Source of the DNA: Patescibacteria group bacterium
GTDB taxonomy: Bacteria > Patescibacteriota > Patescibacteriia > 2-12-FULL-60-25
Reading direction: 5' to 3'
Length of the DNA stretch: 32,903 bases
NCBI GenBank assembly: GCA_029210915.1
Contig: JARGGJ010000018.1
Coordinates: forward strand, 1-32,903
The notes beneath the pieces were generated by a model. The model worked only from the letters and a program-made list of their open reading frames with translations, had not been told where the DNA came from and did not search any database. A program made the position numbers and the translations under genes. Of the stretch, positions 1,669 through 7,992 are shown one piece after another (position 1 is the first letter of the stretch; every line of letters begins with the position of its first letter).

Positions 1669-1932
1669 TTAGGTTGAAGCAGTTTTTATTAGGATGAGTT
1701 TTTCTTTGCGAGATAGCTTTTTGATCACTGCTTCGCGTTTTTTAGCTGAAGATTCTGTGTGCCCATCTTCTGTCCAGAGGATTTTGACGGGGAGGCGGCA
1801 TCTTGTGTATTTGGAGGCTTTGCCTTGGTTGTGGGTTTTTAGGCGATTGTCGAGATCTGTGGTAATTCCCGTATATAGAGTATTGTCGGCACAACCGAGG
1901 ATATAAATATGCCAATTAGCTGATTTTTTCAT
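1669..1932 (-). CDS. GIY-YIG nuclease-family protein (UPF0213/YhbQ-like)
   Basis: An 87-aa single-domain GIY-YIG protein. Visible motifs are HIYIL (8-12) for the first Tyr, TLYTG (18-22) for the second, and TDLDNRLKTHNQGK (25-38) with the conserved Arg30 and the HNxGK signature of YhbQ-like proteins. YTRCRLPV and the Lys-rich C-terminus also fit. I chose the ATG at 1932 because homology begins there; the frame continues to 1992. No clear ribosome site is seen. It lies about 130 nt from a broken tRNA-Met piece, just as the second GIY-YIG gene (7488-7742) abuts a broken tRNA-Ser. Such proteins are presumed structure-specific DNA nucleases; the actual substrate is unknown. Confidence 0.85.
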   Translation of the reverse strand: MKKSANWHIYILGCADNTLYTGITTDLDNRLKTHNQGKASKYTRCRLPVKILWTEDGHTESSAKKREAVIKKLSRKEKLILIKTAST

Positions 1933-2019
1933 GATTATCATTATAGCAGATGAGGACTTGCAAAAAATGGCATAATTGGTTATTATCCTCAAAGTCTTAT
2001 GACTTTAACAACTTGCCGG

Positions 2020-2062: not shown

Positions 2063-2118
2063 GTGGCGAGGTAGCTCCACCCTTCGCGTAAAGCTTCGGG
2101 TGGCAAGCAGTTGGTTAG
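2063..2118 (+). pseudogene. 5' fragment of tRNA-Met split by a 31-nt hairpin
   Basis: Positions 2063-2077 equal 2164-2178, the flank and first 13 nt of the intact tRNA-Met. Positions 2109-2118 (AGTTGGTTAG) equal 2179-2188, the D loop. Between them sits a 31-nt insert (2078-2108) with stem CCACCC/GGGTGG (2077-2082, 2098-2103). The insertion point is between tRNA positions 13 and 14, where the D stem meets the D loop. No 3' half follows, so this is a relic. Confidence 0.85.
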
Positions 2119-2165: not shown

Positions 2166-2242
2166 GGCGAGGTAGCTCAGTTGGTTAGAGCGCGGGACTC
2201 ATAAGCCCGAGGTCGTGGGTTCGATCCCCACCCTCGCTACCA
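2166..2242 (+). tRNA. tRNA-Met(CAT), elongator
   Basis: Acceptor GGCGAGG (2166-2172) pairs with CCTCGCT (2232-2238) with one G-T pair at 1-72. D arm GCTC/GAGC, anticodon loop CTCATAA, T arm GTGGG-TTCGATC-CCCAC, and CCA is encoded (2240-2242). Position 31-39 is an A-G mismatch next to the loop. The paired 1-72 end separates it from the initiator tRNA at 3505. A CAT tRNA could also be the lysidine-modified tRNA-Ile; I prefer elongator Met. Confidence 0.9.
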
Positions 2243-2365
2243 CGTAAAAAGCCGCTTAGAATAATAGGCGGCTTTTTACGTGCCCCGTGATTAATGAAGC
2301 AATAGAATAATTACCGAAATTAATTTTACGGGGCAAAGCATCTATAAGTATCGGCTTCACGTGGT
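2241..2365 (+). repeat. tRNA-trailing structured unit, copy 1
   Basis: It begins with a 15-bp perfect hairpin, CACGTAAAAAGCCGC with its complement, starting in the tRNA CCA. A second stem pairs CCCCGT with ACGGGG. It ends with CGGCTTCACGTGG, which can pair back with the CCACGT at the tRNA end and so close the whole unit. This copy lacks the hairpin insertion found in copies 2 and 3 after GTGCCCCG. The leading hairpin with its T run probably also terminates the tRNA transcript. Confidence 0.75.
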
Positions 2366-2380
2366 ACAGCCCCTCCAAAT

Positions 2381-2528
2381 GCCGCTTAGAATAATAGGCG
2401 GCTTTTTACGTGCCCCGCGTAAAGTGACTTCGTCACTACGCGGCGCTGCCGTGATTATGAGTGAACGTGGATCTGATGGATATCAGATTTACATGGCTTA
2501 GTATTTATAGTACCGGCTTCACGTGGCA
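2381..2528 (+). repeat. tRNA-trailing structured unit, copy 2
   Basis: Same start (GCCGCTTAGAATAATAGGCG) and same end (CCGGCTTCACGTGGCAC) as copy 1. Relative to copy 1 it carries a 34-nt palindromic insert at 2418-2451 between GCCCCG and TGATTA, plus a palindrome at 2471-2488 (ATCTGAT-GGAT-ATCAGAT). Confidence 0.8.
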
Positions 2529-2537
2529 CTGCCCTAT

Positions 2538-2564
2538 AAAAAAATCCCTAAATAGGGATTTTTT
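2538..2564 (+). terminator. Bidirectional-looking terminator
   Basis: ATCCCTA-AA-TAGGGAT flanked by A and T runs, closing the repeat array after tRNA-Met. Confidence 0.7.
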
Positions 2565-2751
2565 GTAATTTCCAAATTCCAATCACCAATAACCAATGGG
2601 ATTGAAGGGAACGAGAGGTTTGATGGGGATCGTGTTGGTAATGAGTGTCTCAGATTCGAATAGAACATCTTGCTTTGGTTATTAAAAAATTACTTGAAAA
2701 TGGGTGATTTTTTGTTGCTTTTTTTGTAATTAAATATTGACAGATTTACTC

Positions 2752-3504: not shown

Positions 3505-3580
3505 CGCGGGGTAGAGCAGTTGGCAGCTCGCCAGGCCCATAACCTGGAGGTCGTAGGTTCAAGTCCTACCCCCGCAACCA
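3505..3580 (+). tRNA. Initiator tRNA-fMet(CAT) with C33
   Basis: Acceptor CGCGGGG (3505-3511) faces CCCCGCA (3570-3576), leaving the C1-A72 mismatch that marks bacterial initiators. A11-T24 in the D stem also fits an initiator. CCA is encoded. Two features are odd. The anticodon loop reads CCCATAA, so position 33 is C instead of the near-universal U. The stem is CCAGG/CCTGG, so base pair 29-41 is A-T and the usual run of three G-C pairs is reduced to two. Confidence 0.93.
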
Positions 3581-3737
3581 CGTAAAAAGCCGCTTAGAAT
3601 AATAGGCGGCTTTTTACGTGCCTCGCGTAAAGTGACTTCGTCACCACGCGACGCTGCCGTGATTATGAATGAACGTGGATCTGATGGATATCAGATTTAC
3701 GAGGCAAAGCATCTATAAGTACCGGCTTCACGTGGCA
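3577..3737 (+). repeat. tRNA-trailing structured unit, copy 3
   Basis: The same unit as behind tRNA-Met, now behind the initiator tRNA. It has the leading 15-bp hairpin, a 34-nt palindromic insert at 3626-3659 almost identical to that of copy 2, the ATCTGAT-GGAT-ATCAGAT palindrome (3679-3696), and the closing CCGGCTTCACGTGGCAC. Confidence 0.8.
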
Positions 3738-3812
3738 CGCCTTGTAAAAAGCCACATAGAATTTGTGGTTTTTTAGTTACAATAAATTTCAGTGGTGGCT
3801 TCACGTGGCGCC
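3738..3812 (+). repeat. tRNA-trailing unit, short copy 4, with terminator
   Basis: A hairpin AAAAAGCCACA...TGTGGTTTTTT (3746-3775) acts as a likely terminator. The copy ends with GTGGCTTCACGTGGCGCC, the same closing motif as the other units. Confidence 0.6.
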
Positions 3813-7384: not shown

Positions 7385-7474
7385 TGGCGGAGAGGTAGGG
7401 ATTCGAACCCTAGGTACCCGTAAAGGCACACCGCATTTCGAGTGCGGCCCATTCGACCACTCTGGCACCTCTCC
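7385..7474 (-). tRNA. tRNA-Ser(CGA), intact
   Basis: Class II tRNA. Acceptor GGAGAGG pairs with CCTCTCC, discriminator G, and CCA is encoded (7385-7387). The anticodon arm is CCGCA-CTCGAAA-TGCGG with anticodon CGA, reading UCG. It has a long variable arm and T arm TAGGG-TTCGAAT-CCCTA. A second, interrupted copy lies at 7749-7914. Confidence 0.95.
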
Positions 7475-7742: not shown

Positions 7743-7748
7743 AGTTAT

Positions 7749-7914
7749 TAGGGATTCGTCCGGTCAGCCGACCGGACACCCAATCGGATGATTGGGCGAA
7801 CCCTAGGTACCCGTAAAGGCACACCGCATTTCGCCGAGTCATCCGACTCGGTGCAAGTGCGGCCCATTCGACCACTGCATCAGGTCGAATGACCTGGCTG
7901 GCACCTCTCCGAAT
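7749..7914 (-). pseudogene. tRNA-Ser(CGA) copy with palindromes in the D, anticodon and T loops
   Basis: Removing three inserts gives 82 nt with no difference from the intact tRNA-Ser at 7385-7474, but the 3' acceptor strand and CCA are missing. Insert 1 (7759-7798, 40 nt, T loop) holds two palindromes, CCGGTC-AGCC-GACCGG and CCCAATC-GGAT-GATTGGG. Insert 2 (7834-7855, 22 nt, between T33 and the anticodon) holds CCGAGTC-ATCC-GACTCGG. Insert 3 (7877-7897, 21 nt, between positions 13 and 14) holds CAGGTC-GAAT-GACCTG. All stems of the tRNA stay uninterrupted. It cannot make a normal tRNA. Confidence 0.9.
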
Positions 7915-7992
7915 TGCTTAATGCTAACGATTTTTTAAGTAAAAGTCAACTATTCGCAAATCTGTTTATTTACGCTATGCTGTAGATTCGAT

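Follow-up and report, generated by a model that had tools for sequence, protein, structure and literature searches.

In fungal mitochondria (Allomyces), a mobile endonuclease gene arrives together with a replacement piece of the protein gene that is broken, and we know of no apex-coded hairpins in mobile endonuclease genes of this type. The free-standing GIY-YIG endonuclease SegB of T4 is encoded by segB, located between the genes for tRNA-Arg and tRNA-Ile, and its target is the tRNA intergenic region (PMC2988022). GIY-YIG-encoding insertions, which are neither group I nor group II introns, have been described in the rRNA genes of CPR bacteria, and the same rRNA survey placed most insertions at the top or the base of a stem-loop and judged the GIY-YIG cases to be outside homing spread (PMC11270868). 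Mitochondrial double-hairpin and repetitive hairpin elements are short G+C-rich palindromes, single or paired, which are thought to be mobile and can merge (PMC2800124, PMC4478555); the stems of the double-hairpin elements are conserved and the substitutions are found in their loops (PMC2800124).

Here, we analyzed palindromes in a window of 32,903 nucleotides from a Patescibacteria group bacterium (contig JARGGJ010000018.1). We propose that the hairpins at 7758-7896 are probably the end or junction module of a mobile element that splits and restores a tRNA gene, the sequence pattern suggesting that their apex is read by the element's own nuclease. Such a tRNA-splitting element marked by hairpins is apparently widespread and undescribed; no prior description was found in the open literature searched, subscription journals and preprints being outside the scope.

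The tRNA-Ser locus and the palindromes of the window

The locus is read on the minus strand, in the order of a promoter-like site, a broken tRNA-Ser, a GIY-YIG ORF and an intact tRNA-Ser(CGA) (Table 1). The ORF is squeezed between its neighbors, starting right behind the relic and stopping right ahead of the intact gene, and it encodes a free-standing nuclease, i.e., a GIY-YIG catalytic domain outside any intron. Excluding the palindromic inserts, nt 14-71 of the relic are 100% identical to the intact tRNA-Ser(CGA). The relic is interrupted by four palindromes, one each in the D and anticodon loops and a tandem pair in the T loop. A second locus on contig 16 follows the same plan with tRNA-Ser(TGA), and an empty site exists in the same-genus genome G008, in which the matching promoter region leads directly into an intact tRNA-Ser and then into the same downstream gene. 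Neither a catalytic intron core (group I or II) nor another known RNA family was detected at the locus, where the Rfam matches were to tRNA only.

Table 1. Features of the window and the basis of their assignment
Feature	Position	Strand	Basis
Promoter-like site TTGACT-17-TAGCAT, ahead of the relic	7921-7949	-	Sequence; region compared with same-genus genome
Broken 5' copy of tRNA-Ser(CGA) (relic), reaching the T loop	7749-7910	-	Comparison with intact tRNA
D-loop palindrome of the relic, tRNA strand CAGGTC-ATTC-GACCTG	7881-7896	-	
Anticodon-loop palindrome of the relic, tRNA strand CCGAGTC-GGAT-GACTCGG	7834-7851	-	
T-loop double hairpin: CCCAATC-ATCC-GATTGGG, then GTCCGGTC-GGCT-GACCGGAC	7758-7796	-	Covariance model
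GIY-YIG nuclease ORF, 84 aa	7488-7742	-	PF01541, 48.3 bits
Intact tRNA-Ser(CGA), restores function	7385-7474	-	
Second GIY-YIG gene, 107 aa, adjoining the tRNA-Met fragment on the opposite strand	1669-1992	-	68.7 bits
tRNA-Met fragment with hairpin insert CCACCC...GGGTGG, upstream of intact tRNA-Met 2166-2242	2064-2118	+	Read from sequence
Nested-hairpin repeat, directly at the CCA end of tRNA-Met (2166-2242)	2240-2570	+	
Palindrome ATCTGAT-GGAT-ATCAGAT, apex of the tRNA-trailing repeat	2471-2488	+	
Shorter copy of the tRNA-trailing repeat, behind tRNA-Met 3505-3580	3585-3750	+	
Second copy of the ATCTGAT-GGAT-ATCAGAT apex, in the repeat behind the second tRNA-Met	3679-3696	+	

The initial annotation had listed ATCTGAT-GGAT-ATCAGAT in two copies, CCCAATC-GGAT-GATTGGG and CCGAGTC-ATCC-GACTCGG, all of which are present, the second of these sequences at 7779-7796 and not from 7780 as first given. 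The tRNA-Ser relic holds two further palindromes, GTCCGGTC-AGCC-GACCGGAC (7758-7777) and CAGGTC-GAAT-GACCTG (7881-7896). The suggested enrichment of GGAT or ATCC loops was also found. In 412 kb of this genome, taken in stretches, 11 of 130 hairpins (stem ≥7, loop 4) had such a loop, compared with 0.47 (maximum of 2 in 15 shuffles) among 35.8 hairpins in dinucleotide-preserving shuffles, and the counts are non-independent because six of the 11 are copies of one tRNA-trailing repeat and four come from two tRNA-Ser relics. Thus 10 of the 11 are tRNA-linked, and the remaining one is unrelated. When oriented, the relic loops read GGAT, GAAT, GGCT and GTAT, i.e., GGAT only in part. The genomes considered here are mainly metagenome assemblies, which could raise the suspicion of an assembly artefact, but the pattern recurs in dozens of independent assemblies from different phyla, and chance is countered by the enrichment over shuffles both in the relics and in the 412-kb scan; we consider the probability of either explanation to be negligible.

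The tRNA-linked palindromes fall into two unrelated families, the tRNA-trailing repeat (2471, 3679) and the tRNA-Ser relic (7758-7896). Genome-wide, the tRNA-trailing repeat has 40 partial matches, the better of which mostly begin at tRNA 3' ends, and many tRNAs of this genome have it from their CCA end onwards. The same type of repeat sits between the tRNA and the GIY-YIG gene in other genera (L077, L085, L090, L102, L107), and the nucleases of these five loci group together; the tRNA-trailing repeats, which lack an ORF, constitute a second family within the same broader phenomenon. Runs of A5/T5 in both arms give their first hairpin the look of a two-way terminator, and the sequence of its stem varies between genera while the pairing is kept. 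GGAT had been regarded as common to the repeat units and the relic. The palindrome at 2471 and 3679, however, is part of another, copied repeat family and its closing differs (GAT-GGAT-ATC), and hence the GGAT match between the two families is probably a coincidence.

GIY-YIG genes beside broken tRNA copies

A tRNA gene adjoins 11 of the 12 GIY-YIG genes of this genome, the exception being part of a 440-aa frame. Two layouts prevail, either a broken 5' tRNA copy followed by the ORF and the intact tRNA (Trp, Arg and three Ser), or an intact tRNA followed by hairpins and the ORF (His, Glu, Pro, Asn and Leu). At tRNA-Met, the GIY-YIG gene at 1669-1992 lies on the strand opposite to the tRNA-Met fragment at 2064-2118, which departs from the usual same-strand layout.

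The survey of relatives covered 38 genomes of the same class, this genome included; of the 124 small GIY-YIG genes examined, 78 have a tRNA ≤400 nt away, which is on the same strand with few exceptions. Most loci in which the nuclease precedes the tRNA show a 5' fragment of the same tRNA right ahead of the ORF, several mirror loci show a 3' tRNA fragment behind it, and in L138 and L228 tRNA fragments flank the ORF on both sides. In L138, tRNA-Gln is split at the anticodon, with nt 16-34 and 35-72 located around the ORF and a whole tRNA. Of 78 breakpoints, 54 are located in tRNA loops, compared with 35% expected (p = 1.4e-9), the blastn ends being approximate. Thirty 5' relics contain 63 hairpins compared with 6.1 in shuffles, and hairpins are borne by 93% of relics but by 28% and 10% of control stretches. 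At such loci, the D, anticodon or T loop of a tRNA gene thus holds a short GIY-YIG gene together with a copied piece of the tRNA. On one side this piece completes a functional tRNA, and the broken half with palindromes at the break remains on the other. Genome G007 has pairs of GIY-YIG genes of identical score (C5:49359 and 50055, C11:14155 and 17904), which are likely duplicates, with no tRNA in the stretch taken.

SLX1 is a structure-specific GIY-YIG endonuclease, and to our knowledge UPF0213/SLX1-type proteins have neither a link to tRNA nor a hairpin module. Proteins of this type are the nearest solved relatives of the window nuclease family, a likeness known here from sequence (PDB 1zg2, 1ywl, 7cq2; E from 5e-19 for 1zg2 to 2e-6 for SLX1). 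The catalytic domain spans residues 1-70 of the 84-aa protein, and a separate DNA-binding module is not evident. When named genomes were scanned with the window nuclease protein as a query, a tRNA adjoined 51 of the 59 closest homologues, whose hosts are Giovannonibacteria, Kuenenbacteria, Saccharibacteria, Omnitrophota, Kiritimatiellae and others.

Hairpin pairing and apex classes

At many loci of close homologues, the T loop contains a double hairpin, GGTTCG-[..TC-ATNC-GA..]-CG-[..TC-GNAT-GA..]-CGAATC, and its second apex is the reverse complement of the first. The order ATNC then GNAT was found in 30 distinct pairs and the reversed order in 3, each pair being counted on both strands in the underlying tally. 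In an alignment of 21 sequences, 97.3% of the cells are paired, 49 double changes were counted compared with 15.7 after shuffling, and the score is 0.467 compared with 0.160; slid-structure controls collapse. The covariance model matches the double hairpin of the window at 7748-7807 with 71.6 bits, this sequence being among the 21 members of the model. In this genome, strong matches were found only at the two tRNA-Ser relics. The search of 36 genomes, in most of which ≤150 candidates per genome were scored, gave strong matches (E<1e-9) that, where the surroundings were read, all lay in or beside a broken tRNA copy; three of those in relatives were outside the training set, and their tRNA copies are not accompanied by a nuclease gene.

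Perfect inverted repeats at break points, whose arms almost always match, could arise without any function as a by-product of repair, by template switching or quasi-palindrome correction at nuclease breaks, and the D-loop palindrome is indeed an inverse repeat of part of the tRNA D arm (GGTCGAATG). Such correction is expected to free the loops and keep the arms, whereas the loops observed here are fixed and the arms covary across phyla, which makes this explanation highly improbable.

Several variants of the hairpins were observed. In L234 (1877-2011), an ORF-less tRNA-Gly copy has the T-loop double hairpin with an extra hairpin nested in the loop of the second one. In L078, L293, L303, L286 and L254, several of which have no nuclease gene nearby, the double hairpin is altered in that TTTAT (or ATAAA) replaces GNAT in one of the loops. 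Genome G020 (L213-L224) contains palindromes CGGCGRATGCCG 11 times compared with 1 for the reversed control pattern; these palindromes of a related kind are also found away from tRNAs, some of them in terminator-like or coding contexts.

A hairpin with the apex TC-GNAT-GA (or TC-ATNC-GA) is present in 29 of the 33 loci of the clade of the window nuclease, four members being without it, and in 0 of the 88 loci outside. The clade specificity gives a Fisher p = 6e-24, which is optimistic because the loci are related. Since the members of the hairpin table were gathered by the apex octamer, apex conservation there is partly by construction, and the clade specificity is the fair test of the apex. 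The apex-bearing supported clade occupies 12 kinds of tRNA, and this type of apex is absent from all 21 tRNA-Ser loci outside the clade. The pairing of the hairpins is therefore conserved and their apex is tied to the nuclease clade; the co-inheritance of apex and nuclease falls short of proving recognition, as related loci are non-independent.

These results also bear on the idea of a constant apex with free stems, which was taken in the initial annotation as a hint of a templating rule and not of the copying of one sequence. For the tRNA-Ser relic family, the stems do vary with compensation and their covariation argues against simple copying of one sequence, while the constant part is TC-GNAT-GA or its complement and not GGAT itself, which is one of the four apices allowed in this family. 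Compared with a templating rule, conserved base pairing together with an apex co-inherited with one nuclease clade is the simpler explanation.

A single clade for all loci with GNAT-type loops was rejected (monophyly, p-AU 0.001). In a subgroup of L062, L072 and L075 the GNAT loops are closed by other pairs, and the GNAT label of L059 is probably due to chance. Other clades show other apices, i.e., GTA/TTC at Cys, CGCG at Trp and CCGAT-GNAC-ATCGG at Arg/Ala, an observation that is suggestive only. The tRNA-Trp relics L056, L121, L136 and L137 carry perfect CGCG-centered palindromes, mainly in the anticodon loop, beside a different GIY-YIG group. In the tRNA-Arg copies of L013 (1302-1500, contig 45) and L058 (1910-2022, contig 16), the anticodon arm is swapped for GTCCGAT-GGAC/GGCC-ATCGGAC, and Arg and Ala loci of other genera have CCCGAT-GGAC/GTAC-ATCGGG at the equivalent place. 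TCNGA is the motif cut by some GIY-YIG restriction enzymes; it was dropped as a recognition motif, several hairpins being without it. We tentatively suggest, although the odds are somewhat against it, that in tRNA-splitting elements the hairpin apex code is specific to, and read by, each nuclease clade, with TC-GNAT-GA in the present clade and possibly CGCG (Trp) and GTA/TTC (Cys) in others, the stem sequence being free and the ends defined by structure and a few loop bases.

The putative element and known systems

The position of the double hairpin differs among loci. It lies 5' of the ORF in L225, 3' of the ORF by a 3' half-tRNA in the mirror-image loci L240 and L256, and on either side of it in L228, which suits the role of an element end better than that of a 5'-UTR. 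As the relic is inside the presumed transcript, a role at the RNA level is possible: the broken tRNA and its hairpins could form a structured leader or tail of a nuclease transcript from the captured tRNA promoter, and either shield the relic from tRNA-processing enzymes or control translation via the protein, once bound at the apex. The relic starts directly behind the native promoter with the ORF only a few bases behind it, base-pair covariation is strong and G.T pairs are present, but the mirror-image loci carry the double hairpin behind the ORF, both hairpin orientations occur (39 ATNC and 36 GNAT), and the wobble test revealed no strand bias, with about 7 G.T vs 5 A.C mismatches, which favors neither DNA nor RNA. 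We therefore regard the RNA-level explanation as unlikely. Folding of the whole relic-ORF-tRNA transcript with and without the palindromes gave no usable contrast. An RNA tetraloop was rejected for the lack of strand bias, and kissing loops between the paired hairpins were rejected because the variable loop base is non-complementary within pairs. A module found on either side of the ORF and without strand preference favors an end or junction module acting at the DNA level.

Independent mobile palindromes comparable to REPs, the Rickettsia palindromic element or mitochondrial GC clusters could also gather in dead tRNA copies. This would account for several hairpins per relic, one of them nested in the loop of another (L234), for the ORF-less tRNA copies with the double hairpin and for the dispersal of related palindromes in G020. 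Such an origin is nevertheless improbable, as the double hairpin is restricted to tRNA relics in this genome and among the strong matches read in relatives, the apex class follows the nuclease clade, nearly every relic holds palindromes, and the genome is without a Y1 (RAYT-type) transposase. REP/RAYT palindromes in particular were rejected, PF01797 (Y1) being absent from this genome while the same search was positive in 6 of 14 genomes.

For the tRNA-splitting mobile element, we hypothesize that the nuclease would cut tRNA genes at their loops and the break would be repaired from an element-bearing copy, resulting in homing-like spread. The hairpins may extrude as DNA cruciforms or form in RNA, and their conserved apex may be recognized by the element's own nuclease, which could define the end of the element, prevent or steer re-cutting, or serve both purposes. 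The reverse-complement apices of the T-loop form would resemble a pair of inverted binding sites. Against this reading, the intact tRNA-Ser still carries the presumed target, which leaves protection from re-cutting unexplained, the window protein hardly exceeds the catalytic domain, and the CGGCGRATGCCG-type hairpins in G020 are found also off tRNAs. If the proposal is correct, small-genome bacteria would widely harbor a compact selfish element that disrupts essential tRNA genes but provides a functional copy in return. Whether the tips of DNA or RNA hairpins are read by a GIY-YIG nuclease of minimal size could then readily be tested on this system, and numerous unusual tRNA pseudogenes and palindromes of these bacteria would have to be viewed as parts of the element and not as noise.

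The GIY-YIG-encoding rRNA insertions (PMC11270868) share many host groups with the tRNA element and may be its cousins. They lie in rRNA genes, and neither a palindrome code nor gene restoration is described for them, the words hairpin and palindrome being absent from that report. The mitochondrial double-hairpin elements likewise consist of two neighboring hairpins, found here as 30 distinct pairs; unlike in them, the apex is fixed and the stems covary here, the hairpins are linked with tRNA loops and with a nuclease gene, and they are not dispersed, as the strong matches read here lie only in or beside tRNA copies. With T4 SegB the element shares a small GIY-YIG gene outside introns. It differs from SegB in that the insertion splits the tRNA gene itself, at a loop, and the copied half restores it, the break is marked by palindromes with a clade-specific apex, the hosts are bacteria and the protein extends barely beyond the catalytic domain. 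As is typical of a free-standing homing endonuclease, an element-free allele occurs in a relative (the tRNA-Ser locus of G008), while the separate DNA-binding module typical of one is not seen in the 84-aa protein. By analogy, the element would work like a free-standing homing endonuclease such as T4 SegB, equipped with mobile hairpins in addition and lacking a separate DNA-binding module.
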